In this document: positions 45,667 through 62,123 of the stretch, piece after piece
Layout: each line of letters opens with the position of its first letter
Numbering within the stretch: the stretch's first letter is position 1
Assembly (NCBI GenBank): GCA_001899805.1
Contig: MKWP01000016.1
Coordinates: forward strand, 62,001 to 126,000
Source: Lysobacterales bacterium 66-474
GTDB taxonomy: Bacteria > Pseudomonadota > Gammaproteobacteria > Xanthomonadales > Rhodanobacteraceae
Length of the DNA: 64,000 bases
Direction: 5' to 3'
Notes under the pieces: model-generated
Told to the model about the DNA's origin: nothing
Database searches by the model: none
Seen by the model: the letters and a program-made list of their open reading frames with translations, nothing else
Made by a program: the position numbers and the translations under genes

Positions 45667-47484
45667 CTAGCGTGGAGCACGGTCACGTCCCTGCACCAGG
45701 CCATCCAGCCGCGCATCCCCGACCTCGGACACATTCGCCCTCACGATCGCCGCGATGCCGCCGCGACCGATGCGCAGACACTGGTCCGCGATGCGAAACG
45801 GTCCCTGTCGATGCGACACGACGATCAGGATCGTTTGCGGAAGGCGCCGCTTCAAGACCGCGAGCACGTTCATTTCGGAATCTGCATCGAGCGCACCGGT
45901 CGCCTCGTCCAGCACGGCGATGAACGGTTGCCGCAGGATCACTTGCACCAGCAGCAACCGCTGGAGCTCGCCACCGGAAAGGCGGCAGGACGATCCTTGC
46001 AACTCCAGGTCGAGACCGTCGCGCGTGCCGTGCAAACGAGCGCCGAGGCCCACGTCCGCCAGCACGGCGTGCAGGCATTCGTCGCTGCTGTCCGGCGCTG
46101 CCCACAACAGGCACTCGCGTACCGTGCGTTGCCACGGACGGATGCTCTGGCTGAGGTAGGCGCCCTTGCGCACGAGTTGCCGGTACCCGTCGAAATCCAT
46201 GAAATGTCCGTTGCTGCGAGCCGCAAAAAAAACGGGCGCCGTCATTCCCGCCAGGACATCCACCAGGCTGGTTTTGCCGATGCCGGAATCGCCGGCAATC
46301 AGGGTCATCTCACCGGGGGTCAGCACCAGGTCCTCGACATCGAGGCGCAGTGAAGGAAATTGCACTCGCACGCGTTCGATGTGCACGCACCGTGTGGTGC
46401 CGCGGACAGCCGTCGCCGGTTGCATCGGCGACCTGACGCGATCCAGGTTCGCATAGCGCTGCCAGAGTTCGAAAGCCGGCACGGCCAGGCGCAATTGCTG
46501 GAAGTTGTGCCGGGTCGAAGCCATGTAGGGCAACAAGCGGCCGAGCAACAGGCCCACCGCGATCCACGACGCCTGGTCGACGCCATGCCAGCGGCCGGCG
46601 ATCAGGAACATGCCGGCCATGCCGACTATCGCGAGCAGTTCCACCACGAGTTTTCCGGATGCCGTCAATTCGATCTGGCGCCGATACGCATGTGCCAGCC
46701 TTGCGGAAACGGCACCGTAGCCGGCCCGCTCGGCACCCTCTCGCTCGAACGAGCGGACGTGGCGCAACCGCCGCGGAAAATCCTCGCTGAACCAGAACAG
46801 CCGGGTCGTGTCCTCGACGTACTGTCGGCTGACCCGCGACTGCTCGCGGCCATTCCAACGCAATGCGACAAGACCGAGTCCCGCCAACGCCGGCAGGATC
46901 AGCGTGAGCACCGGCGATACCCAGAATGCGAACGCGAGGTTGACGGCCGTCGTCACGCCGGCCACCCACAACTGCAACATCGCGCCGACTCCCTGGGTGG
47001 CGAGTTCGACGTTGGCGGTCAGGACATTGGCGATTTCGGCCGAGGTCAAACCGTTCAGTGCGACGACGTCGGCATCGATCAGCCGTGCGTGCACCCTGCC
47101 CCGCAATCGCATCGCGCAATCGCTGATGATGCGCGCACCCAATCCTGAAACGATCCAGCGCAGCAACACGTGGCTACCTATCGACGCCACGAAGATCGAT
47201 GCAAGCACCCCTGCGCCCGCAGGCAGCACCAACACTTGGCCGCCGAACATCGGTGCGTGGCCGGATTGGATCAGGGGAACGAGCACGATGGCGGCGATGC
47301 TTCCCAGCAGCGCCGCGATCAACGACAACACCACGTATGCACTGGCGCGCACTGCACCGGCGCGGCCGATGATGGGCATGAGTTCGCGCAGCAGGTCAAG
47401 ACGCCGACGCCGCGGCGGTGAAACCGGGTCGGACGTGGCCGCGGCTGCGCGGCGTGCGTCAGTCGAGCAATCGGCAGAGCGCAT
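45667..47484 (-). CDS. ABC transporter, fused permease/ATPase (exporter type)
   Basis: Six-TM N-terminus; Walker A IAGDSGIGKTSLVDVL, signature LSGGELQRLLLVQ, Walker B FIAVLDEATGALDADSE. Start overlaps the kinase-like gene stop. Confidence 0.88.
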   Translation of the reverse strand: MRSADCSTDARRAAAATSDPVSPPRRRRLDLLRELMPIIGRAGAVRASAYVVLSLIAALLGSIAAIVLVPLIQSGHAPMFGGQVLVLPAGAGVLASIFVASIGSHVLLRWIVSGLGARIISDCAMRLRGRVHARLIDADVVALNGLTSAEIANVLTANVELATQGVGAMLQLWVAGVTTAVNLAFAFWVSPVLTLILPALAGLGLVALRWNGREQSRVSRQYVEDTTRLFWFSEDFPRRLRHVRSFEREGAERAGYGAVSARLAHAYRRQIELTASGKLVVELLAIVGMAGMFLIAGRWHGVDQASWIAVGLLLGRLLPYMASTRHNFQQLRLAVPAFELWQRYANLDRVRSPMQPATAVRGTTRCVHIERVRVQFPSLRLDVEDLVLTPGEMTLIAGDSGIGKTSLVDVLAGMTAPVFFAARSNGHFMDFDGYRQLVRKGAYLSQSIRPWQRTVRECLLWAAPDSSDECLHAVLADVGLGARLHGTRDGLDLELQGSSCRLSGGELQRLLLVQVILRQPFIAVLDEATGALDADSEMNVLAVLKRRLPQTILIVVSHRQGPFRIADQCLRIGRGGIAAIVRANVSEVGDARLDGLVQGRDRAPR

Positions 47485-48442
47485 CGACGGAATCACGCGG
47501 ATGACGTCCGCGCCGCAATTGATGGACACCCCTGCGCATGATCTCCCGCTTGAAGCGCCGCCAACCCGGTTGACTCGGCGCGTAGGGCTGGTCGGCCTCG
47601 AACAGATGGTCGGCTGCACGCGCGTCCAGCCGGGTCAACGGTGCGTCGGGACGATCGGCGGGTTGGGCGGAAACGAATACCGCGCCGACCAATGCCAGCG
47701 GACCCATGGCCGGCCGGCCGTATTCCTGCCGAAGATCGACCTCGAATTTCTCGACGCCGCTGCGGCGGCGGATGATCGGTGCGCGGGTGATCCAGCCGCG
47801 GATCGCGTCGTCCTCCACGAAGTCCAGCGCCTCGCTTCTCAAATGCAAATAGTTGGAAACACCGGTCGCGGCCAGTTCCCCGGGACGCACGAAGACAGCG
47901 TCCTCGGCCAGCAGCTCCAGTCCCCGCAACAGGCCATGCAAGGCCAATGTCGACTTGCCCGAACCGCTGCCGCCGAGCAGCAGCAACCCGCGGCCGTGTC
48001 GCCCCACGCACGCGGCGTGCAGGGGCACCAGGCCCAGGCCGCGCGCGGCCAGGATGAACACCGCGAACTCGATCAACTCGCTGCGCAGGTGATAGCCGTG
48101 CAGCAGCATGTCCTCCGATGCAACGAGTCGTGCGCGCCGGCGTGCGGGGTCGATCACCGCGCAATTCGAAGCATCGATGTCGGCGCGAAGCAGCTTTCCC
48201 TCTTGCCATATCCGCGGCGCAGGCGGCTCGACCGTCCATGGATCCGCACGCCGCGGCAGCAAGCGCATCTCGACCCGGAATTCGGCAGCGACACCCGGGA
48301 ATGTCTGTGAGGGGAGTCCGTCATAGGCGGCCTCGACCAGACCGATCAAATCGTGGCTGTCGCTCTCGAACCGGAAAAGGCCGCCCAGAACCCGCTTGGT
48401 TGCGATGTGGGGGAGACAAGCGGGTCCGGGCGGTGGGGACAC
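47459..48442 (-). CDS. HPr-kinase-like (HprK-related) P-loop protein
   Basis: LVPLHAACVGRHGRGLLLLGGSGSGKSTLALHGLLRGLELLAEDAVFVRP. Start uncertain: GTG at 48442 chosen, the longest ORF starts at 48637. Confidence 0.75.
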   Translation of the reverse strand: MSPPPGPACLPHIATKRVLGGLFRFESDSHDLIGLVEAAYDGLPSQTFPGVAAEFRVEMRLLPRRADPWTVEPPAPRIWQEGKLLRADIDASNCAVIDPARRRARLVASEDMLLHGYHLRSELIEFAVFILAARGLGLVPLHAACVGRHGRGLLLLGGSGSGKSTLALHGLLRGLELLAEDAVFVRPGELAATGVSNYLHLRSEALDFVEDDAIRGWITRAPIIRRRSGVEKFEVDLRQEYGRPAMGPLALVGAVFVSAQPADRPDAPLTRLDARAADHLFEADQPYAPSQPGWRRFKREIMRRGVHQLRRGRHPRDSVDALCRLLD

Positions 48443-48709
48443 TTTCTGGCGAAACCCATCGCCACCACGAGTCGCTTCGCGACGATCGATCGAAGGCTCC
48501 AGGTTGGATCGCACGGGATTCGCAATCTCCGGATGGCACCGTAGGTGCGACGCCACGCGAAAAAGGTTGCACACCCGGCGCCGCGCGACGATCGGCGCCC
48601 GAAATCCACCGGCAACCTGCCGCGGCATGCGTGGCACTCACCCTCACGCGGCAATCGACGAAGCGCGCCGCCGATCCCCGTCGGGCACCCCCAGCAGGCC
48701 TCCTTGCCG

Positions 48710-50221
48710 ATGTTGAAGATCCAGGTTACCCATTCCTACTTCCTGGAATACGACCCCAAGCAATGGGAGCGCGGCAAGCCTTATCCACCGCTCGCGACCC
48801 TCCAGGTCGCCGCTTTGCTGAGGCGGCTTGGGCATGGCGTCGCGCTGTTCGACGCGATGCTTGCCGACGGCGTCGAGGCCTATGAAAGATCCTTGCCGTC
48901 CGCCGCGCCGGACGTCGTGGTCCTGTACGAGGACAACTTCAACTTCCTGACCAAGATGTGCCTGGACCGCATGCGCGAGGCCGCCTGCCGGATGATTGCC
49001 TCGGCGCGCGCGCACGGCGCGAGGGTGATCGTCGCAGGCTCGGACGCTTCCGATCATCCGGAATCCTTTCTGGCCGCGGGCGCCGACGTGGTGCTGGTGG
49101 GCGAAGGCATTGCGGCGCTCGTCCAACTGATCGAACGCATGGACCGGGATCCGTCCATCGAAACCCCAAGCTGGGTGGCCGGACTATCCGGCGTTTCCAT
49201 TCTCGACGGCGGGGCATCGCGAACGACCCGCCTTGGGGTGCAACCGCCGGATCCGAAACTGACCGGCCACCCGGCCTGGGACCTGATCGACATCGAGCGC
49301 TACCGGGCGATGTGGCGCGAGCGACACGGTTATTTCAGCCTCAACATGACGGCCTCGCGGGGTTGCCCGTTCCACTGCAACTGGTGCGCCAAGCCGATCT
49401 GGGGCAATCATTACCGGCGCCGCGATGCCGGCGAAGTCGCCGCGGAAATGAGTTACCTGAAGCACGCCTTCCGCCCCGACCACATCTGGTTCGCCGACGA
49501 CATCTTCGGATTCCACAGCGATTGGGTGGACGCATTCGCCGACTGTTTGCGCGGCAGCGACGGCATGGTGCCGTTCACGATCCAGACCCGCGCCGACCTG
49601 TTGACCGAGCCGATGGCGGCCGCGCTCGAACGCGCCGGTTGCGCGGAGGCGTGGATCGGCGCGGAGAGCGGCAGCCAGCGCGTACTCGACTGGATGGACA
49701 AGGGCACCCGGGTCGGCAAGTTGGTCGATGCCCGCGAGCGCCTCGGTTCGCACGGCATCCGCGTCGGCTTCTTCATCCAGCTCGGCTACCTCGGCGAGCA
49801 ACTCTCCGACCTGCTCGCGACCCGCGAACTGATCGCACTCGCGGCACCCGACGACATCGGCGTCAGCGTTTCGTACCCGCTTCCGGGCACCCGGTTCTAC
49901 GAACAGGTGAAGGCCCAGCTCGGCAACAAGACCCACTGGCGCGACAGCGGCGACCTGGCCATGATGTTCCGGGGCACCTACGATTCCGCGTTCTACCGCT
50001 GCTTCCGCGACCTGCTGCACGAGCAGGTTGTCCTGCAGCAATCGCGTGGCACCGATTCGCCCGAATCCCCCGGGCAGGCGTTTGCTGCGCTCGACGCGCG
50101 ATGGGATGCGCTGATCGCGAGCGAACACCTCCATCGCAATCCCGACCCAACCCCGGCGCCGGTGCGATCCAGCAAACATGCCGTACCCCTTCGCCGTGCC
50201 GTCACCGCCCAAAATCATTAG
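48710..50221 (+). CDS. B12-binding-domain radical SAM protein
   Basis: N-terminal Rossmann-like PPLATLQVAALLRRLGHGVALFDAML; MTASRGCPFHCNWCAKPIWG (CxxxCxxC); IWFADDIFGFHSDW. Confidence 0.88.
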   Translation: MLKIQVTHSYFLEYDPKQWERGKPYPPLATLQVAALLRRLGHGVALFDAMLADGVEAYERSLPSAAPDVVVLYEDNFNFLTKMCLDRMREAACRMIASARAHGARVIVAGSDASDHPESFLAAGADVVLVGEGIAALVQLIERMDRDPSIETPSWVAGLSGVSILDGGASRTTRLGVQPPDPKLTGHPAWDLIDIERYRAMWRERHGYFSLNMTASRGCPFHCNWCAKPIWGNHYRRRDAGEVAAEMSYLKHAFRPDHIWFADDIFGFHSDWVDAFADCLRGSDGMVPFTIQTRADLLTEPMAAALERAGCAEAWIGAESGSQRVLDWMDKGTRVGKLVDARERLGSHGIRVGFFIQLGYLGEQLSDLLATRELIALAAPDDIGVSVSYPLPGTRFYEQVKAQLGNKTHWRDSGDLAMMFRGTYDSAFYRCFRDLLHEQVVLQQSRGTDSPESPGQAFAALDARWDALIASEHLHRNPDPTPAPVRSSKHAVPLRRAVTAQNH

Positions 50222-51476
50222 GGCGGGCCTGCGCCGCACCACCGAGGCGATGGCCTCGGAACTGGCGCGCCCCGGCGGTGCTACCCCTGCGTGGAGCGAC
50301 TTCGAATGGCGGCTTGCAACGGCCGCCGCGGCAGCACACGGCGTATCGCCATTGCTCTGGAAACTTTCGGGCTGGACGCAACCGCATTGGCGACGGTTCC
50401 TGGAAAACCAGCACGAACACGTCGCGATCCGTCATGCCAGGATCACGGCGCTGCTGGAAGACATCGATGCCTTGGCGCGCACGGCCGGGCTGGCGATGAC
50501 TCCGCTCAAGGGCGCCGCGTTGCACGCGCTCGGCCTCTACGCACAGGGCGACAGGCCGATGGCCGACATCGACCTGCTGGTCAACGAGACCGATGTCGAT
50601 GCGGCAACCGGGCTGATGTGCGAGATCGGTTATGCGCCGTCGTTCGATAGCTGGCGGCATCGGGTTTTCGAACCCGCGGCGGGAACGCCTCCCCTCGTGC
50701 TGGGCGAACATCGCGACACGCCGATCAACATCGAACTGCACGCGCGCGTCCGCGAGCGCTTGCCGGTATCCGACATCGATATCACCGAACGGATCCGCCC
50801 GCGCAACCCGGAACCCGGTTTGAATCCTTATCCGTCGCGCAGCGCGTTGCTCGCCCACTTGCTGTTGCACGCCGCCGGCAACATCTGCGGGCGCAGCCTG
50901 CGCCTGATGCACCTGCACGACATCGCGTTGCTGGCGCGCAGCCTGCGACCGGAGGAATGGGTCTTCCTGTGGCAGGATGTAGCGTACTGGTGGGCACTGC
51001 CGCCGCTGCAGATGGTCGCACGCTATTACCGGGACGCGATTCCGGATGTCGTGCTGGCCACGCTCGCCCGCGATTGCCCGCCGCTGCTGCGGGCAGTTTC
51101 CCGCCGCCAGACCCTCACGCGGGTTTCGTGTTCCGAACTGTGGCTGCATGCATTCCCGGGCCTCGAATGGTCGCGCAGCCTGCGCGAGGCCACGCGATTC
51201 ATCGTGGGCCGCATCAAACCTTCCGCCGAAAAGCAACGCGAACGTGCGGACATGGCGCGCACGCAACTGTGGCTCCACGACGGTGATTGGGTCACGGCCA
51301 GGCAATCAAGGCGGATCTTCACCTGGCTGACCCGGAAGGTGCCGCGGATGGACATGATGCACGTGGTGCGCATGGCGTTGGCGCACGCGACATCGACAAC
51401 AGGCTGGAATGGGGAAGACGGTGTGGAACGTGGAGCAACGGTCGTCGAGTGCATCCATGGGGGCCGCTGTCCATGA
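50178..51476 (+). CDS. Nucleotidyltransferase family protein (PF14907-like)
   Basis: LKGAALHALGLYAQGDRPMADIDLLVNETDVDAATGLMCEIGY; conserved G..R.M.DID motif; overlaps the upstream radical SAM gene. Confidence 0.82.
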   Translation: MPYPFAVPSPPKIIRAGLRRTTEAMASELARPGGATPAWSDFEWRLATAAAAAHGVSPLLWKLSGWTQPHWRRFLENQHEHVAIRHARITALLEDIDALARTAGLAMTPLKGAALHALGLYAQGDRPMADIDLLVNETDVDAATGLMCEIGYAPSFDSWRHRVFEPAAGTPPLVLGEHRDTPINIELHARVRERLPVSDIDITERIRPRNPEPGLNPYPSRSALLAHLLLHAAGNICGRSLRLMHLHDIALLARSLRPEEWVFLWQDVAYWWALPPLQMVARYYRDAIPDVVLATLARDCPPLLRAVSRRQTLTRVSCSELWLHAFPGLEWSRSLREATRFIVGRIKPSAEKQRERADMARTQLWLHDGDWVTARQSRRIFTWLTRKVPRMDMMHVVRMALAHATSTTGWNGEDGVERGATVVECIHGGRCP

Positions 51477-52435
51477 GGAGGCCTGAGGTCTCCATCGTCC
51501 TGCCGACCTGGAACCGCTTGCCGTTGCTGCGCAGGGCAGTCGATTCCGTCCTCGCGCAGACTCATCGCGATTTCGAGCTCATCGTCGCGGATGACGGTTC
51601 GACCGACGGCACGCGGGATTATCTCGAAGCGATCGAAGATCGGCGTGTGCGCCCGATCTGGCTCGAACACCGCAGCGACCTCACTTCGGCCCGCAGCGCG
51701 GGACTCCGGCACGTGCGCGGCGAATGGGTGGCGTTCCTCGATTCGGACGACCTGTGGCTGCCCGAAAAACTGGCGCTGCAACGGCAACGACTCGCCGCGC
51801 ATCCGACTTGCCGGTGGAGCTACACGGGATATTCGCTGATCGATGCCGACGGGAGGCCGCTGCCGGAGCGTTCGGCTCGCCTTGACCGGCCGTTATCCGG
51901 ACGCATCCTCGAACTTGTGCTGGGATTCAAGATTGTTCCTGCGATTCAGACGACCCTCGTGCAGCGGTCCCTGATCGAAGAGATCGGTGGGTTCGACAAG
52001 GCGATCGCGATCCGGTCCGATTTCGATTTCACGCTGCGACTCGCTGCACGCAGCGAGGTCTGCGCGCTGCCCGAAAATCTGACACTGGTTCGCGAACACT
52101 CGGGGCGAACCACGGCGCAACTACGCCAGGTGGATCTGTATTGCGACAACGAACGGGCATTCCGCAAAGCGGCGGCCACGGCAACCGATCGCAGGATACG
52201 CATACTCTGCCTTCGCCAGTGTGCGATGCAGCTGATTGGACAGGCTGGCGCCCTGTCACGGGAGGGGTCGCACCGGGCTGCGTTGGCGGCGCTCGCCCAC
52301 GCCGCACGTGATGTGCCTTTCAACAAGGCACCAAAGCCGCCTTCGGTAATCTGCTCAGCGTCGACGACGTCATTAAATGGATCGACCATCTCTTGCCGAG
52401 GTCGACAGCGCGCGCTTGGGCGGGGTCTGCTCTAA
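51473..52435 (+). CDS. Glycosyltransferase family 2 (C-terminus possibly altered)
   Basis: EVSIVLPTWNRLPLLRRAVDSVLAQTHRDFELIVADDGSTDGTRDYL...GEWVAFLDSDDLWLPEKLALQ; ATGA overlap with the preceding gene. Confidence 0.9.
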   Translation: MRRPEVSIVLPTWNRLPLLRRAVDSVLAQTHRDFELIVADDGSTDGTRDYLEAIEDRRVRPIWLEHRSDLTSARSAGLRHVRGEWVAFLDSDDLWLPEKLALQRQRLAAHPTCRWSYTGYSLIDADGRPLPERSARLDRPLSGRILELVLGFKIVPAIQTTLVQRSLIEEIGGFDKAIAIRSDFDFTLRLAARSEVCALPENLTLVREHSGRTTAQLRQVDLYCDNERAFRKAAATATDRRIRILCLRQCAMQLIGQAGALSREGSHRAALAALAHAARDVPFNKAPKPPSVICSASTTSLNGSTISCRGRQRALGRGLL

Positions 52436-53559
52436 GTACCAAAGCCGCCGCAACACCGGCTGCAGGCAGGCAGCAGGCCTCCGGCCTCGGTGAGCGTCGC
52501 CCGCAGCGCTTCTATGCTCGAGTGTTTCCAGATGCCTTCAAGACCGACGTCGCGAACATTGGCGATCGGAAACCGATAGCACCGCCCATGAACGGGCACA
52601 GACTCGCCATCAGCATCGACCATCAGGATGCGAAAGGCATCGTGGCAACGGCGGCCAATGAATTGCGAGGGATGGCGATAGTAGATGTCGAGGTCGGCCT
52701 CGCTCGTGCGATCGGGCTGGATCGTAACGGAGAACGGCCAAGTCGTCCCCTTGATGTCGGCCAGTTCGTCGGCCAGGCGAGCGATGTCGATCGTCGTCGG
52801 ATCGGATTCGAAGCTATTCGAGGGCGTGGCAGGATAGGCCGCGCCATAGAGCATATTGTGTTCATTGGCTTGCGCGGGCGTCACGAAATTATTGTGAATC
52901 AACCCAACCTGCTTCAGAGGCAGATCACTGATGTCGTCAAGAAAGGTCTTGAGGTGACCGACGTTGTATTCGCTGATCGTGCAGAAGACGGAGATCTCGG
53001 GCGCGCCCTCTAGCGCCGCTACGGCACGGATCCCCTCCACCGCCCGCGCGAAACTACCGACATGGCGCCGGATGCGATCATGCAGGGCCGCCGAACCATC
53101 GAGCGAGACGAACAGACCGCGGCAGCGGCCCACCGCAAACTCTGCTGCCCGTTTTGGCAGGAGCAGGCCATTGGTGGTGACCGTCGCATGCAAGCCCAGC
53201 GCAGAGGCATAGGCCAGTGCGTCACCGAGCGGCCGCCAGGCCAGCGGCTCGGTGAATGCGAAGCCAAGGTGTGCCTCGGGACAGAAGGCCGCCATATCGT
53301 CGGCGATGCGCTGGAACAGCCCCCACGGCATGGTCCGCGTCTGGGCACCCATCAAATTTGCGCCGAAATTGGTCTCGGCATTGCCGGTGCCAACGTCACA
53401 CATGACACAACGCAGGTTGCAAAAATTATTGACCCCGAGGACGACGTGTCTGGGCCGCGATCCCGCCGCGAGGCGTACTTCCGGAACTGGCTGGCTGGCT
53501 GCGGGCATGGCGGGCAGCTTTCCTCGGGTGATCGTGTTTGTTTCTTTCGGCTCAAGCAC
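52432..53559 (-). CDS. Radical SAM/SPASM-domain protein
   Basis: HVVLGVNNFCNLRCVMCDVGTGNAETNFG (CxxxCxxC); C-terminal CHDAFRILMVDADGESVPVHGRCYRFPIANVRDVGLEGIWKHSSIEALR...CSRCCGGFGT SPASM-like. Confidence 0.88.
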   Translation of the reverse strand: MLEPKETNTITRGKLPAMPAASQPVPEVRLAAGSRPRHVVLGVNNFCNLRCVMCDVGTGNAETNFGANLMGAQTRTMPWGLFQRIADDMAAFCPEAHLGFAFTEPLAWRPLGDALAYASALGLHATVTTNGLLLPKRAAEFAVGRCRGLFVSLDGSAALHDRIRRHVGSFARAVEGIRAVAALEGAPEISVFCTISEYNVGHLKTFLDDISDLPLKQVGLIHNNFVTPAQANEHNMLYGAAYPATPSNSFESDPTTIDIARLADELADIKGTTWPFSVTIQPDRTSEADLDIYYRHPSQFIGRRCHDAFRILMVDADGESVPVHGRCYRFPIANVRDVGLEGIWKHSSIEALRATLTEAGGLLPACSRCCGGFGT

Positions 53560-53648: not shown

Positions 53649-55718
53649 CTACCCGACAAGGTTCGATGCCTGCGGTGGTCCGCTCGCAGCTCGATTTGTC
53701 GTCACGGCATCCCTGCCGCCTTTCACCCATACGTCGTAGGTTCCAGACGAAAGCGATCGCCATCCCTGGCCTTCCATGACGTTTTCCATTTCCCCGCGCC
53801 ACGGCGCCGAATGCACCAACACCACGGCAGTCACTCCATACCGCCGCAATGCATCGGCAAACCACGCCGCCGAATCCGGCGGCCGATGTCGGCCTGCGAC
53901 ATAGCCCATCAGCGAACTCCGCTGCGCCGCGTCTTGCTGTGGGAACGCGCGGGTCAAATAAAGCTCCCGAACCCCCATCAGCTCCGGATGCACCACGAAA
54001 CCCGGCAACCAGATGGACACGGCCTCCGGAGCGAGGACGACGCCGTGCTCGGGCACTTCCTTGACCACCCGCTCGGCCACCCGGTATTCGACCGGATCGA
54101 CCTTGAGCCCCGGCAAGCCAAACGTCACGCCATTCGCGCTGCGCAGCGTTCCGAAGCGCCAACCGAACGCAATCGCGAAACCCGCCAATGCGGCACAGGC
54201 GCACGTTGCCAGCACCTTCGATCGCATGCCCCGTGCGCGTTCGATCACACCGTCCAGCAGCACGGCCAGGAAGAACGGCAGCGGCAACGCCCAGGTCAAC
54301 CGCCAGTAGGTGCGAACGCCGACGAAGTGATCCGCGACAACACGGACCGTGTAGGGATTGAGCGCGACGAGCAGGAAAAAGAACGCGCCGGCGGACAAGT
54401 AGCGCGCGCGGACCGGGTTGGCCACGAACGCCCACGCCGCGAGCAGCGCCGCCAGCAGCAGTTGCGTGCTCCACCAGCCCCAGGTGTCGCCGAGTATCTG
54501 CGGCACGCCGGGCATGGGACTGGAACTGACGAGGGCCTCGCCGCCGTGCGTGGCGGAAGCCATCGCCCAGGCCGCGCCGAATACATAGGCCGAAGCCAGC
54601 ATTCCCACTGCGAATCGTCGACTGCTCGCGCTGTTTGCCGACCAACCGCCGGCCAGGCCCAATGCCGCTGCCGCAGGTGCGACGAACAATGCGCTCGCGC
54701 TGGTGCCGAGGGCCGTGACTTCTGCGGCAAACAGCAAAAGCCAGTGACGCAGCCCACCATGCCGGGCAAACAGCAACGCCGAACCGGCGATGAGGGGAAC
54801 CATGCCGGTGACCAGGATCGCCTTGCCCTGGAACAGCCGCACGAAGGCGAAATTGCCGTAGGCGCGATGCATTTCACCGAGCGCCAACACGCAAAGAAAC
54901 AGAACCAGCAACACGGACGGCCAGCGCACGGGCACGATGCGCCGCAACAGGTAAGCCCATGCCAGCACGCACAGTGCGGCGAACACCGGCGGCAGGATCA
55001 TGTACGCAACCACCAGGTGATCGATCCCGGTGATCCGGGCCAGCGTCCCGACCAGGACGTCGTAGTTGCTCAACCGGTAGAACTGCAGCAGGACCGGAAT
55101 ATCCGGCAGCCGGTACAGCGTGTCGTGCACGAGCACCGGCTGTTGCGGATAGCGCAACAGGGTCGCCGAGATGCTCCGATAAAAGGCATCGTCCGCATCC
55201 GGCCGACTCGCGACCAGCGTGACGCAGACCGCCGCGACGACGACGACGAGCAGGACGATCCATGCTGCATGTTTGTTCGCACTGTCGGCTGATGTGACGT
55301 GAGGTGTGCCGCGCAGGTTCCCTATCCATGCGCCACCCGTTGCCAGCAACGCGATCCACCAGAACACCGGGTAAGGCATGCCGGCCGAGAGCAGCCCCAC
55401 CCACACGATCGCCAGTGCCAGTACCACGAAAGGCACGAACCGGGCGCCGATTGCACGCGCCACCCAGACTGCGACCGGACCGGAAACAACCCCGCCGCTG
55501 GCCGCGACGGGATCCGACTGCCTTGCCGGCACCGGCAAGCGGAACCACGCGAGCGTCGCAGCGGCGGCGATCAGCGCCATGCCCGGCAGCCCGTACAGCA
55601 GCGTGTCGAAGCTGGAATGCGTCGCAGTGATCAGGTGGACGTACATCGTCCAGATCGCGTACGGCAGCACGAACAGGGGGACGATTCGATCCGGAACGTC
55701 GTTCAATGCAAATCGCAT
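53649..55718 (-). CDS. Polytopic membrane protein of the polysaccharide cluster (glycosyltransferase-like)
   Basis: ~689 aa, many hydrophobic segments, soluble C-terminus; ATG at 55718. Confidence 0.7.
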   Translation of the reverse strand: MRFALNDVPDRIVPLFVLPYAIWTMYVHLITATHSSFDTLLYGLPGMALIAAAATLAWFRLPVPARQSDPVAASGGVVSGPVAVWVARAIGARFVPFVVLALAIVWVGLLSAGMPYPVFWWIALLATGGAWIGNLRGTPHVTSADSANKHAAWIVLLVVVVAAVCVTLVASRPDADDAFYRSISATLLRYPQQPVLVHDTLYRLPDIPVLLQFYRLSNYDVLVGTLARITGIDHLVVAYMILPPVFAALCVLAWAYLLRRIVPVRWPSVLLVLFLCVLALGEMHRAYGNFAFVRLFQGKAILVTGMVPLIAGSALLFARHGGLRHWLLLFAAEVTALGTSASALFVAPAAAALGLAGGWSANSASSRRFAVGMLASAYVFGAAWAMASATHGGEALVSSSPMPGVPQILGDTWGWWSTQLLLAALLAAWAFVANPVRARYLSAGAFFFLLVALNPYTVRVVADHFVGVRTYWRLTWALPLPFFLAVLLDGVIERARGMRSKVLATCACAALAGFAIAFGWRFGTLRSANGVTFGLPGLKVDPVEYRVAERVVKEVPEHGVVLAPEAVSIWLPGFVVHPELMGVRELYLTRAFPQQDAAQRSSLMGYVAGRHRPPDSAAWFADALRRYGVTAVVLVHSAPWRGEMENVMEGQGWRSLSSGTYDVWVKGGRDAVTTNRAASGPPQASNLVG

Positions 55719-55779: not shown

Positions 55780-58700
55780 TCATTGGCGTATGCCGAAATA
55801 CACGTCGTTGGGCGCGAGGTTGGGGTTGTGGAAGGGATCGCGGTCGAAAAAGCCCGGATGCTTGCCGAACATGATCGTTCGTTCCCTGTCTCCCCTCGCC
55901 ATTCGCGCGCGGTCGAGCGAGTCCTTGCCACGACTCAACGATTCGTGATGGATCAACTCGACCCCCGGGCAGACGACCTGGTAGAAGCCGTGCTCGACCA
56001 GGCTGAGGCACAACGCGATATCGTTGTAGGTCACGGCAAGGTCTTCGTCGAAGCCGCCCACGGCCTCGAACTTTTCCCGCTCGATCATGAGGCACGCGCC
56101 CGTCACCGCGATCCAGTCGTGCTCGAGCATGTTGCGGGCGAAATAGCCCGGAGCATGTGCGTCGACGTTGACGAAAGCATGCCGCGGGCCACCGGTCAGA
56201 TTCAGGACCCCCGAATGCTGGACTGTCCGCGTGCCGGGATACAGCAGTTTCGCCCCCACCGCCCCGACGTGCGGCAATTGCGCATAGCCGCCCATGCACT
56301 CCAGCCAGTCGGCGGACAGCACTTCGGTGTCGTCGTTCAGGAACACGAGGAGCTCGCCACGGCTGTGGCGAACGCCAAAATTGTTGATTTCGGAATAATT
56401 GAACGGCACGTCGTGATCGAAGATGCAAACCTGCTCCTGCTTGCGCAGCCCGGCGAGATAATCGCGGGTGCATTTGTCCGTGGAACCGTTGTTGATCAGC
56501 ACGATCTCGAATACGCGGTACGCGGTGCGTTCGAAGATGCTGTCGATGCAGGCCTTGAGCACCGCGCCATGGTTCCTGCTCGGAATGATGATCGAGATCA
56601 GCGGCCGGCCCTGCATCCGGTAACGGGTGCGGAAGCACCCCGGAAGTTCGGGTATCGAAACGAGTTCGCCCGACTGGCTGCGTCTGCGCAGCGCATCTTC
56701 CCGCGCCCGTTTGCTGGCGTCGATTGCGTAAGGTTTGGCTTCGGGACCCGACGCACATGAAGTCGGCGTGATCCGCCAGTGATACAGCACCCTCGGAATG
56801 TGCGCGATGCGGTGTGTGCGTTCGCTCACCCTCAGCACGAAATCCCAGTCCTGGCTGCCGTCGTATTCGCTGCGCAGGCCACCCAGTTCCACGGCCAACG
56901 AGCGGCGCACGCACGACACGTGGCAGGTGAACATGATGCTCATCATGGTGTCCGGCGACCAATCCGGCTTGAAGAACGGATCCCGGAAACCGCCGTCGAC
57001 ATCGAGCTTGTCCTCGTCGCTGTACAGGTAATCCGGATCATCGAGATCGATGCGCCGTGCCAGCTCGTACAGGCAGTCCACGGTCAGTTCGTCGTCATGG
57101 TCCAGGAACACGAGGAAGTCGCCGGTCGCGCGCGCAATGCCTTCGTTGCTGGCCCCCGAAATGTGCTTGTGTTCCGCCAATTTGACAACGACGATCCTGG
57201 GATCGGTGAGACCATCGAGCATCTCGCAGACACTGGGCAAGCTGCTGTGGTCGTCCACCAGGACCAGTTCCCAGTGGGGGTACCATTGGGCTTCGACCGA
57301 AGCGATCATCCGCCGCAACAATCCGGGGTCGGTGTTGTAGATCGGCACGATGACCGAAAAGAGGGTGTGCCGCGAAAATGCGAGCATGGCCTTCCCGATC
57401 GCGGACGGCTCCGCTTTCGGTGGCGAGTAGGTGTACCCCGAAGACGCCGAAGGCGCCTGCCCCGGGCCGGCCGCTACTTCTGCAACGGCTTCGATGGCAA
57501 TCGGCCCCGGGCTTGCCGACTGTGCCGACAATTGTCGTGCCGCAACGCGTTGCTCCCGAAAAAAACGCATCCGCGCCGGGGTGTACCACGGCGTCACGAC
57601 CCACCACGCGGTCCTCATTCCCAGGCGAAGCGTCAGGCGCATGTTCGCGGGCAGGCACAGCAGGATCGATCGCACGCCAACCAGTGCCCGCCACAAGGTA
57701 CTGGCCTTGATCTCGTCAAGCTCGTGCCGCAACGAGGACTCCAGCTCATCCTTGTTCGCCTGCAACCCCGCGCAAGTCGTTTCCAGTTCCGCGTAGCGCG
57801 CCTCACAGTCGGCGATCCTGCTTCGTTCGGCCTCAAGTTGATTCGACAGATCGATGGATCTTGCCGTCATGCAGAACGTTTCCCGCTGCACCTGGGCCGC
57901 GCGTGAGCGGCTGGTGGCCAGCTCACCCTCCAGCCGGGCGTCATGGGCCTGCAACGCATCCATGCGCTGTTGCAAGCGGGTTTCGCGTTCACGGCTTGCA
58001 ACCAGCTCGTCCTCCAGCTGCGCCCCACGGTTCTCGGAGGCGCGCCGCTCCTCGAGCAGGGTCTCCACCCGGCCCAGGAAGGGCGGGGCCACCAATCGGT
58101 AATCGTCCACCAATCCCGAAATTGCCTTCCAGTCCTGCGTATCCGGGTCGAGCCTGCGGCAAAGTCCGTACAGGCGGTCCACGACTTCGGGCGTCGGGCA
58201 AAAGCCCTTCGAGAAAACATGATGCCGTTGTGTTTGATCGAGGAACGCATCGATCGCGGGATGCGCATCCTCGATGGGCACCGGCCACTTCACGCGCAAT
58301 GCACGGCCGACCCTGGCGAAAGCATCCCGCCAATCCGAGAGAAGGTCGTCGTACGAAAGCAGGCTGCGCGGCATGCCCCGGGTCGCGGTCTCCGCTTCCA
58401 CGAAGTGTTCAAGCCAGTTCAGGTACGTGGTTTCGGGACGCAGGCCTTCCCTGATGTCCAGCGACCGGACGACTTCCGCGGGATGACGCACGACCAAAAG
58501 GGCGACCGCCTCGAATCCGGATTCGAGGAGCACCTCGCGCCACAGTGGCACGAAGCGGCACAGGCGGGGATCCTTGACCGCCCAAAGCGCGCTGCCATCG
58601 AAGTCGTCGGCTATCAGTCTGGCGAGCGTGTTGCGCGCCTTGCGCGCCGCGGCCGAGAGAAGCCAGCCTTCCGGCAGGACGCGTGCGTCATGCCACACCC

Positions 58701-58941
58701 GGCCCAAATCCTTGAGCAGTTCTTCGTGGACCGCCACGACATCGGCGTGCTCCCAGAATCCCGACCGATTGTCGTCCGCGGGTGGAAGCAGTTTGTTTCC
58801 GACTTCGGCGCCCAGCAGGTTGAGGCAGCGGGTGACGGCCGAGGTGCCGCTGCGGTGCATGCCCAATACCAGGATGACCTTGCGCGTTTCCGCACTGCCG
58901 GCGAAGCGCGCGACGTTCGTACTTGACAAGGCCGTGGTCAC
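55780..58941 (-). CDS. Sulfotransferase - coiled coil - GT2 - GT2 multidomain protein
   Basis: N-terminal KVILVLGMHRSGTSAVTRCLNLLGAEVGNKLLPPADDNRSGFWEH; coiled-coil region; FSVIVPIYNTDPGLLRRMIASVEAQWYPHWELVLVDDHSS; ISIIIPSRNHGAVLKACIDSIFERTAYRVFEIVLINNGSTD. Confidence 0.88.
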   Translation of the reverse strand: MTTALSSTNVARFAGSAETRKVILVLGMHRSGTSAVTRCLNLLGAEVGNKLLPPADDNRSGFWEHADVVAVHEELLKDLGRVWHDARVLPEGWLLSAAARKARNTLARLIADDFDGSALWAVKDPRLCRFVPLWREVLLESGFEAVALLVVRHPAEVVRSLDIREGLRPETTYLNWLEHFVEAETATRGMPRSLLSYDDLLSDWRDAFARVGRALRVKWPVPIEDAHPAIDAFLDQTQRHHVFSKGFCPTPEVVDRLYGLCRRLDPDTQDWKAISGLVDDYRLVAPPFLGRVETLLEERRASENRGAQLEDELVASRERETRLQQRMDALQAHDARLEGELATSRSRAAQVQRETFCMTARSIDLSNQLEAERSRIADCEARYAELETTCAGLQANKDELESSLRHELDEIKASTLWRALVGVRSILLCLPANMRLTLRLGMRTAWWVVTPWYTPARMRFFREQRVAARQLSAQSASPGPIAIEAVAEVAAGPGQAPSASSGYTYSPPKAEPSAIGKAMLAFSRHTLFSVIVPIYNTDPGLLRRMIASVEAQWYPHWELVLVDDHSSLPSVCEMLDGLTDPRIVVVKLAEHKHISGASNEGIARATGDFLVFLDHDDELTVDCLYELARRIDLDDPDYLYSDEDKLDVDGGFRDPFFKPDWSPDTMMSIMFTCHVSCVRRSLAVELGGLRSEYDGSQDWDFVLRVSERTHRIAHIPRVLYHWRITPTSCASGPEAKPYAIDASKRAREDALRRRSQSGELVSIPELPGCFRTRYRMQGRPLISIIIPSRNHGAVLKACIDSIFERTAYRVFEIVLINNGSTDKCTRDYLAGLRKQEQVCIFDHDVPFNYSEINNFGVRHSRGELLVFLNDDTEVLSADWLECMGGYAQLPHVGAVGAKLLYPGTRTVQHSGVLNLTGGPRHAFVNVDAHAPGYFARNMLEHDWIAVTGACLMIEREKFEAVGGFDEDLAVTYNDIALCLSLVEHGFYQVVCPGVELIHHESLSRGKDSLDRARMARGDRERTIMFGKHPGFFDRDPFHNPNLAPNDVYFGIRQ

Positions 58942-60356
58942 GACACGCGCTCCACGCTCAAATCCGCAAGAACGTGGAAGTCCACGGTACCGGTCGCCAT
59001 GCGCTCGGCATCGTGCATCACTCGGAACATCAGGACGTCGATGACCCGATCGAGGTACGTCTCGCCTTCCGGTTCGGCCGCGGTCACGCCCGCGTTCATG
59101 AAGTAGACCCCGGGGGCGAGCATGGCGCGGAAACGGAAGCGGGCCTGCAGGCGTTGCCCGGCCGAAACGATCATGCCGCCCGCGGGGTGCGGTGCGGTGG
59201 CGGCGCCGCCCAACTCCAGGCCGGTGATGGTTTTGATCATCATGCCCAGGCGTACCCCGACCGCGGTCGTCTGGAACAGGACGTCGTACGTGTAGAGGTA
59301 TTCGCGTCCCGGGGACAGGACATTCACCTGCCGACCCATGCGGGTTTCGATCCTGGGACCTGCGATCGATGCCCCGCGCGACGGGTAGCGCACCGTGCTG
59401 AGCGGCAGCATGGCTTCGTCGAAGTACGCCGATTCCTCGATTTCCCTTATCTCGACGCCATCCACTTTGGCGGGAATTCCACCCTTCGCCGCCGCCTGCA
59501 TCCCCGAATCAATCGCCGACAGATCTTCGCGGAGCTTGCCTTCGATCCATTCGCGCCTGATGGATTCCCGTACCGCGGCCGCCTCGTCCGCCGGCGCATA
59601 CAGCAGCTTGTGATAGCGGGCCACCACGAACTTGGGTGTGCCGTCGGCGATCATTTCACCCTGGTCGAGCAGGATGGCCCGGTCGCAGAGTTCGATGACG
59701 GTGCCCGCCGCGTGGGACACGAACAGGACCGTTGCGCCTGCGTCGCGGATTGCATCGATGCGCGCGAAGCATTTCCGCTGGAAAGCCTCATCGCCCACCG
59801 AAAGCGCTTCGTCCACCACCAGCACATCGGGCGACACGTTGATCGCGACCGCGAACGCCAGCCGCACGTACATGCCGCTGGACCAGGTCTTGACCGGCTG
59901 GTCGATGAAGTCGCCGATCCCGGCAAAATCGAGGATGGCATCGAAGCGGGCGTCCAGTTCCTGCTGCGACAGCCCGTACAGCAGCCCGCCGAGGCGGACG
60001 TTTTCCCGGCCGGTGAACTCCGGGTTGAACCCCGCGCCCAGTTCCAGCAATGCCGCGATGCGGCCGTCCACGGCAACCGTTCCGAGCGTGGGGTTCAGTG
60101 TTCCGCAGATCATCTGCAGCAACGTCGATTTCCCCGACCCGTTGCGGCCCACGATGCCGACGGTTTCGCCCTTGCGCACGTCGAAACTCACGTCACGCAG
60201 CGCCCAGAACTCGCTGAAATAATTCCCTGCGGATCGACGCACCGCCCGCTGCAAGCGCGGCAGGATCATCTGCTTGAGCCGGTCGGCAGGCCGCGCATAG
60301 ATCTCGTAGCGCTTGGACAGGCCTTCGATGCGAATGCTCGAATCTTCAGACGACAT
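58938..60356 (-). CDS. wzt: Polysaccharide ABC transporter ATP-binding protein (Wzt) with C-terminal carbohydrate-binding-type domain
   Basis: GETVGIVGRNGSGKSTLLQMICGTLNPTLGTVAVDGRIAALLELGAGFNPEFTGRENV; long C-terminal domain typical of Wzt_C. Confidence 0.92.
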   Translation of the reverse strand: MSSEDSSIRIEGLSKRYEIYARPADRLKQMILPRLQRAVRRSAGNYFSEFWALRDVSFDVRKGETVGIVGRNGSGKSTLLQMICGTLNPTLGTVAVDGRIAALLELGAGFNPEFTGRENVRLGGLLYGLSQQELDARFDAILDFAGIGDFIDQPVKTWSSGMYVRLAFAVAINVSPDVLVVDEALSVGDEAFQRKCFARIDAIRDAGATVLFVSHAAGTVIELCDRAILLDQGEMIADGTPKFVVARYHKLLYAPADEAAAVRESIRREWIEGKLREDLSAIDSGMQAAAKGGIPAKVDGVEIREIEESAYFDEAMLPLSTVRYPSRGASIAGPRIETRMGRQVNVLSPGREYLYTYDVLFQTTAVGVRLGMMIKTITGLELGGAATAPHPAGGMIVSAGQRLQARFRFRAMLAPGVYFMNAGVTAAEPEGETYLDRVIDVLMFRVMHDAERMATGTVDFHVLADLSVERVS

Positions 60357-61173
60357 CGGCGAAGCCCTTGCGCGTCCGTTCGAACCAGGCGAACGCGAAC
60401 CACGCGAACAACGATGCGATCACGGCGTATGCGGCGAGATGGTCGAAGCGCGGCAACCGGCCCCAGACCAGCACATCCTGCGAGGCTTCCGCGATGACGG
60501 TCAGGGGATTGAAATAAAGCGCGAAGCGCCAGCGATCCGGAATCAGCGTGGCGGGATAGAGGATGGGCGCCAGGAACATCAGCGCCATGCTGACGATGCC
60601 CACCGCCTGCTTCAGGTCACGCAGGTACACGCCCAGCGACGCCAGCAGCCAGACGCTGCCCGCGACGAACGGCAGGAAACACGCGACGACGACAGGGAAG
60701 AAAACCACCGTCCACGGAATGTGGCCCATCACCCACGGCGAGATCGCCAACAACACCAGCGTGGACACGCACAGATGGAACAGCCCGGAGCCCAGCGTGC
60801 TCCAGGTCAGCGTCTCCAGTGGAAACACCACGCGCTTTACGAAATTGGTGTTCTCGATGACGAGCGTGGTGGCACGATTGGCGCATTCCGAGAAGAAGGT
60901 GTTGATGTTCAAGCCTGCGAACAACACCACGGCGTACTGGAACGGATTGGTGGTCTGCGCATTCCAGCGCGACTTGAAGATCACCCCGAACACGAAGGTG
61001 TAGACGACCAGGACCAGCAACGGATTGAGGAACGACCACGCGAGGCCCGCGAACGAACCTCGGTAGCGGCCCGCGACGTCGCGCCGGGCCATCTGCACCA
61101 CCAGCGCGAAATGACGGGTCAGCGCGAGGTACGGCGAGATCGGGTCCGTCAGCCGGTAGGCGGATGTCGTCAT
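60346..61173 (-). CDS. wzm: Polysaccharide ABC transporter permease (Wzm)
   Basis: LALTRHFALVVQMARRDVAGRYRGSFAGLAWSFLNPLLVLVVYTFVFGVIF; six TM segments. Confidence 0.93.
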   Translation of the reverse strand: MTTSAYRLTDPISPYLALTRHFALVVQMARRDVAGRYRGSFAGLAWSFLNPLLVLVVYTFVFGVIFKSRWNAQTTNPFQYAVVLFAGLNINTFFSECANRATTLVIENTNFVKRVVFPLETLTWSTLGSGLFHLCVSTLVLLAISPWVMGHIPWTVVFFPVVVACFLPFVAGSVWLLASLGVYLRDLKQAVGIVSMALMFLAPILYPATLIPDRWRFALYFNPLTVIAEASQDVLVWGRLPRFDHLAAYAVIASLFAWFAFAWFERTRKGFADVV

Positions 61174-62123
61174 GGCAGGTGTGTGCTCCGCGCCACGCGG
61201 TTTAGGTTGCCGCCGCGGCGGATTTTTCCGCCCGCCTGCCGGTCGCCGGCGCGGGTGTCCGTAGCCGCTTGCCTTGTTCCCACCGCGAAGGTGAGGCTTT
61301 GCAGGAAATGGAAATCCGGGCGACGGAGCGCGTAGCGTTCATCGCCTGGATCACACAGCCATCCCAGTTCCTCGAAGTCTTGCGGGTCCAGGTATTTCCG
61401 AAGGCGCTCGCCCCACGTGCCCCGGAAGATGCACTCCAGCAGGTAACGCTCGTCTGTTTCCGCGAGCGGATGCGTGCGTTCGATCATGCGCGTGTGCACG
61501 CGCACGTCGCGCAACCCGGCTCCTGCCAGCCAGCCGGCGAGCGAACGGACCGCGGTGAAATCGCGTTCGCTGCGGCCGTAGCGCTCCCGGTAATAGGCGC
61601 GCACCGCTTCGTTCACGCGCGCCTCGAGGCGGGCATCCCACGCGAAGTACATGTCGGGCACCAGCGAACTTTGCCCCACCGCGATGCGTCCGCCCTGGCG
61701 CAACAGCTTCGATAATGTCCGCACGCCCGCGATGGGGTCGCCCAAATGATTGACGGCGTTGACAGCCCATACCAGATCGAACGCGCCATCCGCAAACGGC
61801 GGCCCCAGCATGTCACCCTGCACGATCGACGCCCTTGCCGATGCCAGTCCATGGGCGGCCTCGACGTGCGCGGCGGCCAGGTCCATCCCGACCACCATTC
61901 CCCGGCCGCGCATCGATGCATGCCACCAACCCAACGCCTCGCCGGTGCCGCAACCCGCGTCGAGCACGCATGACCCTGCGGGCATCGGCAGTGCATCGAT
62001 CGCCTCACGCAGCTCCGGTCGCGCGAAGGCGTTGAACAATCGCAGCTTCCCCGCGTAGTCGCGTTGCGGGGTATCGCCGAGCCACCCGGTTTCCGGCAAG
62101 CGTGATTGCACGATGCATTTCAT
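61170..62123 (-). CDS. Class I SAM-dependent methyltransferase
   Basis: CVLDAGCGTGEALGWWHASMRGRGMVVGMDLAAAHVE...FDLVWAVNAVNHLGDP; start ATG at 62123. Confidence 0.88.
   Translation of the reverse strand: MKCIVQSRLPETGWLGDTPQRDYAGKLRLFNAFARPELREAIDALPMPAGSCVLDAGCGTGEALGWWHASMRGRGMVVGMDLAAAHVEAAHGLASARASIVQGDMLGPPFADGAFDLVWAVNAVNHLGDPIAGVRTLSKLLRQGGRIAVGQSSLVPDMYFAWDARLEARVNEAVRAYYRERYGRSERDFTAVRSLAGWLAGAGLRDVRVHTRMIERTHPLAETDERYLLECIFRGTWGERLRKYLDPQDFEELGWLCDPGDERYALRRPDFHFLQSLTFAVGTRQAATDTRAGDRQAGGKIRRGGNLNRVARSTHLP

Follow-up and report, generated by a model that had tools for sequence, protein, structure and literature searches.

A conserved Lysobacterales locus, apparently under its own ECF sigma factor, places an HprK-fold kinase, a PF14907 nucleotidyltransferase and B12-type radical SAM proteins beside polysaccharide genes

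The genes for an HprK-like kinase, an ABC transporter, a B12-type radical SAM protein and a nucleotidyltransferase that lie together in Lysobacterales bacterium 66-474 belong to a larger locus that had not been described before and of which they form one end. Sequence comparison indicates that this locus is conserved from Rhodanobacter to Xanthomonas, and it is apparently activated as one unit by a dedicated ECF sigma factor of its own. The module is probably one arm of a sigma-controlled locus that builds, decorates and exports a surface saccharide, either a polysaccharide or an attached lipid-linked oligosaccharide, a reading based on gene content, conservation, a shared promoter-like element, co-inheritance of the sigma factor and the lack of a detectable peptide precursor in the loci compared. 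The reality of the locus and regulon is strongly supported, while the chemistry is what we infer. Coordinates follow the numbering of the window, the whole stretch of 64,000 nt that was analysed (MKWP01000016.1, positions 62,001-126,000). The module comprises the following features:

45667..47484, minus strand: ABC exporter, fused TMD-NBD, MsbA/PglK-like, core (Pfam, NCBIfam, orthologues)
47459..48514, minus strand: HprK/PEPCK-fold kinase-like protein, core (start uncertain, GTG 48514 or GTG 48439)
48541..48570, minus strand: promoter-like element facing HprK (GCAACCTTTTTCGCGTGGCGTCGCACCTAC), a weak, degenerate copy against the refined pattern
48612..48641, plus strand: promoter-like element facing rSAM1 (GCAACC-N16-GCACTCAC, exact)
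48710..50221, plus strand: B12-binding-type radical SAM protein rSAM1, core (Pfam, motif, orthologues)
50178..51476, plus strand: PF14907 nucleotidyltransferase NTP5, core (Pfam)
51473..52435, plus strand: GT2 glycosyltransferase, accessory, non-core (Pfam)

The five genes had been described from the sequence alone as a tailoring and export module, and their ORFs, positions and order are as then given, including the 26-bp overlap of the HprK and ABC genes (provided that the ABC start is ATG 47484) and the ATGA overlap of GT2 with the PF14907 gene, which in turn overlaps rSAM1 by 44 nt. The expected co-occurrence of all five holds for ABC, HprK, rSAM1 and PF14907, which are kept together in almost all of the 28 relatives in which rSAM1 occurs, as well as in at least 72 of 80 additional loci that extend to Xanthomonas, but not for GT2, which has an orthologue in only 3 of the 28 and is, on this comparison, a genus-level extra. 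HprK is under-counted in some of the further loci, because an over-long ORF call labelled rSAM1 (L037) artefactually spans it. As the order and orientation of the four non-GT2 genes are held in relatives at 43-84% protein identity, the arrangement is not due to chance.

Alignments show intact active-site motifs in all four of these proteins. The ABC exporter has both Pfam domains above their cut-offs (ABC_tran, 54.9 bits; ABC_membrane, 32.1 bits) and orthologues in 26/28 relatives (47-78%), with Walker A, LSGGE and H-loop conserved. The HprK-like protein scores under the Pfam cut-off for Hpr_kinase_C (26.0 against 33.3 bits), and structure prediction places it in the HprK/PEPCK kinase fold, as had been proposed: its AlphaFold2 model (pLDDT 88) matches PEPCK (E 3e-8) and HprK/P (E about 1e-4) in Foldseek, and there is an HMM match to 1jb1/1ko7. 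The P-loop residues, H172, E210-D211 and the SGVxKxExDxR motif are all invariant among 21 orthologues. A search across Pseudomonadota with the HprK alignment gave full-length matches inside the family only and mostly P-loop-level matches elsewhere; the best NCBIfam matches were TIGR04352 (39.7 bits) and TIGR04355 (34.3 bits), with cut-offs of 200, and assignment to HprK-related kinase A (TIGR04352) was rejected.

For rSAM1, Pfam and the alignment identify the Radical_SAM domain (54 bits) with its CxxxCxxC motif, C219-x3-C223-x2-C226 being invariant among 22 orthologues, and a B12-binding match of 29.6 bits, slightly below the cut-off of 32.1. Its identity in relatives is 67-84%, and a plasmid search returned, among the matches listed, only distant radical SAM proteins (23-29% identity). 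The suggested PF14907 membership of NTP5 is confirmed (104.5 bits against a curated cut-off of 31.2), and its KG...RPMADxDLL stretch, including the KG and DxD motifs, is invariant in the orthologue alignment. In Foldseek, its AlphaFold2 model resembles ANT(2'')-Ia and LnuA with weak E-values, while FKRP appears low in the list at a non-significant E of about 0.7.

The sequence-only reading captured only half of the system, leaving out the other half of the locus as well as how it is regulated. Besides setting GT2 apart, the comparison adds six core genes at 62120-68656, mostly past the window end, which form a co-conserved operon encoding a pair of GT4s, another B12-type radical SAM protein, two methyltransferases and an amidohydrolase. 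Along the locus, the five-gene module is followed some 10 kb on by this GT4..MT3 operon, then by a Wzx/Wzy/Wzz polysaccharide block and an ECF sigma/anti-sigma/S8-protease operon; the genus of the window has Wzm/Wzt in place of the Wzx/Wzy/Wzz block. The remaining features are as follows:

52432..53559, minus strand: radical SAM protein with a C-terminal Cys cluster, accessory (Pfam)
53649..55706, minus strand: DUF6077 membrane protein, accessory in the window's genus (Pfam, orthologue comparison)
55780..58941, minus strand: sulfotransferase-like N-terminal region (by inspection) and two GT2 domains, accessory (ORF list, Pfam)
58938..60356, minus strand: Wzt, glycan ABC exporter ATPase (Wzt_C 86.9 bits, ABC_tran 87 bits)
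60346..61173, minus strand: Wzm, ABC2-type permease (78.8 bits)
61170..62123, minus strand: methyltransferase MT1, semi-conserved (6/29 loci)
62120..63229, minus strand: GT4 glycosyltransferase GT4a, core (27/29 loci)
63226..64365, minus strand, cut by the window at 64000: GT4-like glycosyltransferase GT4b, core (27/29 loci)
64368-65885, minus strand, past the window end: rSAM2, core
65908-66606, minus strand, past the window end: methyltransferase MT2, core
66606-67826, minus strand, past the window end: amidohydrolase, core
67823-68656, minus strand, past the window end: methyltransferase MT3, core
68762-68791, minus strand, past the window end: promoter-like site, MT3 side
69033-69851, plus strand, past the window end: TorF porin
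69852-69881, plus strand, past the window end: promoter-like site, ECF sigma side
69910-70494, plus strand, past the window end: ECF sigma (Sigma70 r2/r4)
70491-71123, plus strand, past the window end: anti-sigma
71120-72433, plus strand, past the window end: S8 protease

The core thus consists of ten genes (ABC, HprK, rSAM1, NTP5, GT4a, GT4b, rSAM2, MT2, amidohydrolase and MT3), whose co-conservation is seen in the 28 relatives and 80 named loci. The B12-binding domain of rSAM2 scores 50.8 bits, and within the arboricola/citri group of Xanthomonas most members have lost this gene. Genes for polymer export and assembly share the locus with the core and are of two types, either a Wzz-family PCP, Wzy-like protein, Wzx fragment, FdtA, DegT aminotransferase and NeuD (Wzz/Wzy-like genes in 18-20 of 28 relatives) or Wzm/Wzt with the Wzt_C glycan-binding domain, as in the window itself; the ten core genes are kept with either. 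The radical SAM protein with the C-terminal Cys cluster has no orthologue in the loci of the 28 relatives.

A promoter-like element, GCAACC-N15-GGCACTCA, lies upstream of rSAM1, HprK, the MT3 operon and the sigma gene, where it would be autoregulatory. The rSAM1-facing site is found in 27/29 loci and an equivalent of the HprK-facing one in 16/29 at no more than two mismatches. A single spacing accounts for 97 sites, against about 7 at other spacings; across 28 genomes the exact pattern occurs 49 times and its reverse twice, and 10 module-bearing genomes contain 42 sites, against 1 in 10 module-free ones. An orthologue of the ECF sigma (at least 68%) is present in 29/29 module genomes and 2/120 others (hypergeometric p = 7e-29, for related genomes that are not independent events). 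The link between sigma factor and promoter is drawn from sequence and co-occurrence. The neighbouring anti-sigma has an H-x3-C-x2-C motif and one predicted TM helix. Elsewhere in the genome, the genes downstream of such sites are those for peroxiredoxin, methyltransferase, b561 and cytochrome proteins rather than small ORFs; two matches at no more than one mismatch (C2 and C7) were taken as chance, being located within genes or pointing away from them. A keyword search of a Xanthomonas campestris sigma-factor survey (PMC6085468) gave no match to this sigma factor, and a full-text literature search returned no description matching the locus, sigma factor or promoter in Xanthomonas.

The product had been left as a peptide or a saccharide, and the second is favoured because the genomic company of the module is polymer machinery (Wzx/Wzy/Wzz or Wzm/Wzt), FdtA, NeuD and GT4s. 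We can envisage that the ZAS-type anti-sigma would release the sigma factor, which would activate its own gene and turn on ABC-HprK, rSAM1-NTP5 and the MT3..GT4a operon, together with the FdtA..Wzz polymer operon in most relatives. The GT4s would put together an oligosaccharide, and either this or a building block may be alkylated by the methyltransferases and by both radical SAM enzymes of the cobalamin type, with the amidohydrolase deaminating a precursor. The HprK-fold kinase could phosphorylate a hydroxyl, and the nucleotidyltransferase-fold enzyme may build on that phosphate, by analogy with PadeK/PsmN on lasso peptides, the two together giving a phosphate-based decoration. The product would then be flipped by the MsbA/PglK-type exporter, and the polymer moved via Wzx/Wzy or Wzm/Wzt. 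A bolder version, which we put forward tentatively, is that a Lysobacterales ECF sigma controls a glycan modification of an undescribed kind. Enzymes known to date from peptide tailoring, an HprK-fold kinase with a PF14907 nucleotidyltransferase, would place a phosphodiester on a lipid-linked saccharide C-methylated by two cobalamin-dependent radical SAMs, and the resulting B12-dependent phosphoglycan would be produced by soil and plant-associated bacteria, Xanthomonas among them, when under redox or envelope stress.

As the ten core genes are not tied to a single polymer machinery, their product could instead be a small molecule distinct from the polymer but regulated together with it. This would be a diffusible glycosylated, methylated natural product with its own ABC exporter, having only the stress regulon in common with the polysaccharide genes, which we consider rather unlikely. 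The amidohydrolase, two methyltransferases, two B12-type radical SAMs and GT4s do resemble natural-product tailoring, the best neighbours of NTP5 by target TM-score are small-molecule adenylyltransferases (the weakly matching ANT(2'')-Ia and LnuA), and a distant locus (L185) has the rSAM1/HprK/GT4a/GT4b/rSAM2 set with no polymer block in view. However, the conserved genes include no scaffold-forming enzyme (PKS, NRPS or terpene synthase), and polymer machinery persistently accompanies the core within one locus.

WbdD is a kinase/methyltransferase that caps ABC-dependent O antigens, and the HprK-like protein and NTP5 might similarly provide a phospho-cap or chain terminator of an exported glycan, read by Wzt_C. 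The domain is present on the window's Wzt and the core combines a kinase fold with methyltransferases, but we judge this improbable, as the core is equally conserved beside Wzx/Wzy systems, for which such a cap is needless, and the HprK fold is unlike the protein-kinase fold of WbdD.

A RiPP-like system, with HprK and NTP5 modifying a peptide that the ABC exporter secretes and whose precursor gene lies elsewhere or escapes detection through its small size or variability, is likewise improbable, since only the Wzx fragment emerged when all ORFs of 20-160 aa lying outside large genes were clustered across 29 loci, bearing out the earlier remark that no precursor is visible, the promoter-like sites elsewhere do not front small ORFs, and the locus has no leader protease and, among its conserved gene clusters, no Asn-synthetase-like macrolactam cyclase. 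HprK-related kinase A/B families accompany PqqD partners. The whole genome (99.96% complete) has no match to PqqD (PF05402), the lasso B2 leader peptidase (PF13471) or exosortase (PF09721), and the kinase lies far under the TIGR04352 and TIGR04355 cut-offs despite sharing the P-loop and HprK-like core, so that the suggested kinship with known HprK-related kinase/PqqD or lasso-type systems is not supported. Among the latter, the paeninodin and pseudomycoidin clusters, with PadeK and PsmN, respectively, carry the same tailoring/export set of HprK homolog, nucleotidyltransferase and nearby ABC exporter, where the pair works on peptides (PMC8498205). Here, in contrast, precursor, B1/B2, PqqD and cyclase are absent from the locus, and the kinase belongs to a separate HprK-fold subfamily and has GT4s, B12-type radical SAMs and polymer genes as its neighbours.

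Under the preferred surface-saccharide reading, HprK/nucleotidyltransferase pairs would move from the RiPP frame to surface-glycan biology, where FKRP/LicD-type phosphotransferases use an NTase fold for phosphodiester-linked glycan decorations (the FKRP match of NTP5 not being significant). It also suggests that Rhodanobacter, Dyella, Luteibacter, Lysobacter and Xanthomonas modify their surface in a B12-dependent way. With known Wzx/Wzy and Wzm/Wzt loci, the region shares the Wzz-family PCP, Wzy-like protein, GT2, FdtA (WxcM-like), DegT aminotransferase and NeuD, or Wzm/Wzt with Wzt_C, but differs in its extra HprK/NTP5/ABC/two-radical-SAM/amidohydrolase core and dedicated ECF sigma. Similarly, the sigma operon has the Sigma70 r2/r4 regions, adjoining H-x3-C-x2-C anti-sigma and autoregulatory site of other ECF/ZAS pairs, and differs in its own promoter signature, the S8 protease in the operon and a putative glycan-tailoring regulon. 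The order thereby gains a dedicated, directly testable sigma-factor regulon, which its promoter signature makes searchable in any sequenced relative.

All five genes that the sequence-only reading described at 45667-52435 are present, with the coordinates and order it gave. Start codons come from a home-made caller. Domain searches identified the ABC exporter as MsbA-like, the radical SAM protein (rSAM1) as having a B12-binding-type N-terminus, the nucleotidyltransferase (NTP5) as a strong PF14907 match, and the fifth gene as a GT2. Of 148 relatives, sampled mostly from one order, 28 carry an ortholog of rSAM1 (67-84% identity); all counts accordingly refer to related genomes and not to independent events. 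NTP5 lies directly 3' of rSAM1 in all 28 loci, the HprK-like kinase gene (HprK) is divergently upstream in 27, and the ABC gene is on the same divergent side in 26; one locus (L044) is cut by a contig end. The proposed five-gene co-occurrence therefore holds for these four genes and fails for the GT2, found in only 3 of the 28 loci.

A second block, on the opposite strand and at a downstream distance ranging from a few kb to about 16 kb, is almost as constant as the first. It contains two glycosyltransferases (GT4a and GT4b), a second B12-type radical SAM gene (rSAM2), a TRZ/ATZ-type amidohydrolase, and two methyltransferases (MT2 and MT3), and had been missed because it runs past the window end. 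It and the linked sigma gene are located as follows (window numbering continued):

62120-68656, opposite strand to rSAM1: second conserved block, extending beyond the window end
69910-70494: ECF sigma gene, with a promoter-like element immediately upstream

Among 80 named loci, spanning Rhodanobacter, Dyella, Luteibacter, Frateuria, Pseudoxanthomonas, Luteimonas, Lysobacter, and many Xanthomonas, we counted rSAM1 in 80, NTP5 in 79, ABC in 77, and HprK in at least 72. The two most distant (L185 and L187) keep rSAM1, HprK, and some GT4 and methyltransferase genes, with no ABC gene at its usual position. Most arboricola/citri-group Xanthomonas lack rSAM2 in the operon (L179:15289-15426 and other loci) and retain MT2, the amidohydrolase, and MT3.

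The divergent HprK/rSAM1 intergenic region contains two inverted copies of GCAACC-N16-GCACTCAC, which are conserved while the flanking DNA is not. The best copies in the window's genome (0-1 mismatch) precede rSAM1, the ECF sigma gene, and, on a different contig, a peroxiredoxin gene; two further matches look like chance. The copy before the MT3 operon has three mismatches (two to the refined pattern), and the one facing HprK has two and is weak against the refined pattern. This refined pattern, GCAACC-N15-GGCACTCA, has 97 sites in 29 loci (841 kb), versus about 7 at any other spacing, and the genes downstream are rSAM1 (27), MT3 (17), HprK (16), ABC (9), ECF (6), and FdtA (5). Across whole genomes, the exact pattern gave 49 sites versus 2 for a reversed control, and a longer form gave 42 in ten genomes bearing the rSAM1 module versus 1 in ten module-free ones.

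An ortholog of the sigma factor (≥68% identity) is present in 29/29 module genomes and 2/120 others (P = 7e-29, for related genomes rather than independent events). One of the two exceptions is an incomplete genome and the other a fragmented assembly, where one contig holds both the sigma gene and an rSAM2-like gene. Two more products of the sigma operon are an anti-sigma factor (H-x3-C-x2-C, one predicted transmembrane helix) and an S8 protease with its catalytic triad. The sigma factor may act at the element, a link based on sequence and co-occurrence. As the element elsewhere precedes genes for peroxiredoxin, cytochrome b561, a multiheme cytochrome, MHTG-type methyltransferases, and an acyltransferase-like protein, a redox or envelope stress signal is suggested.

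The peroxiredoxin (AhpC/TSA) gene at L077:1501-2205 (G000:C8:116312) has the element upstream in both the window's genome and G028, and in G053 a peroxiredoxin gene sits between HprK and the ABC gene. Past the sigma operon (L033:8570-14028; window numbering 72570-78028) lie genes for FolE2, an MtrA/DmsE-like multiheme cytochrome, an MtrB/PioB porin, and a cytochrome c, together resembling an extracellular-electron-transfer conduit. A similar multiheme cytochrome gene in a relative (G060, L091) bears the same element.

The kinase-like protein matches HPr kinase below threshold in domain searches, and membership in TIGR04352, the family against which the sequence-only reading proposed to check it, does not hold (39.7 bits versus 200). 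The expected HprK fold was nevertheless recovered: a model built from 21 orthologs (mean pLDDT, 88) matches phosphoenolpyruvate carboxykinase (Foldseek E value, 3e-8) and HPr kinase (about 1e-4), with an HMM match to 1jb1. Conservation of the P-loop, H172, E210-D211, and an RRSGVxKxExDxR-like motif makes an active phosphotransferase plausible. Because residues 1 to 37 of the modeled open reading frame are disordered, translation probably begins later than 48532.

A peptide substrate has a precedent in lasso peptides, where a kinase phosphorylates the C-terminal Ser and the pseudomycoidin nucleotidyltransferase attaches hexoses to the phosphate (PMC8498205). The locus has a comparable pair of enzymes, for which the proposed acceptor is a saccharide: by analogy, HprK would phosphorylate a hydroxyl and NTP5 would extend that phosphate. 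The searches proposed for PqqD and small open reading frames were both empty; the 29 loci yielded no conserved small open reading frame, in line with the reported absence of a visible precursor, and the 99.96%-complete genome no PqqD, lasso B2 protein, or exosortase. The NTP5 model has only weak structural neighbors. ANT(2'')-Ia and LnuA rank highest by target TM-score and FKRP ranks low, a result that is compatible with a small-molecule or glycan acceptor but does not prove one. We found no earlier description of the locus in the open-access papers searched. This exosortase-free genome does encode an XrtA/PEP-CTERM-type EpsB_2 sugar transferase (42157-43560, minus strand; TIGR03013, 555 bits, over the cutoff).

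After MT3, most relatives carry genes encoding a chain-length protein of the Wzz family, a membrane protein resembling Wzy, a GT2, a Wzx fragment, a DegT aminotransferase, a GNAT/FemAB-like protein, a NeuD acetyltransferase, and FdtA. As FdtA and an aminotransferase are present, we infer that this block is of the type making polymers containing dTDP-3-amino-3,6-dideoxyhexose. The window's genus instead has a Wzm/Wzt pair bearing a Wzt_C domain, along with DUF6077 and GT2 fusions; the core therefore accompanies surface-polymer loci yet is independent of the export route.

Other genes were also noted. In a 1,053-aa protein (55780-58941, minus strand), the first 250 residues by eye resemble a P-loop sulfotransferase and are fused to a coiled coil and a pair of GT2 domains. 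The gene at 52432-53559 (minus strand) encodes a radical SAM protein whose C terminus has a Cys cluster; it is nearest TIGR04317, far under the cutoff, and is absent from the loci of the 28 relatives. Last, an MHTG-type methyltransferase and a flavin-reductase-domain protein (L038:7100-8666) form a traveling pair that is sometimes within the locus, and elsewhere the methyltransferase gene also occurs with the sigma element.
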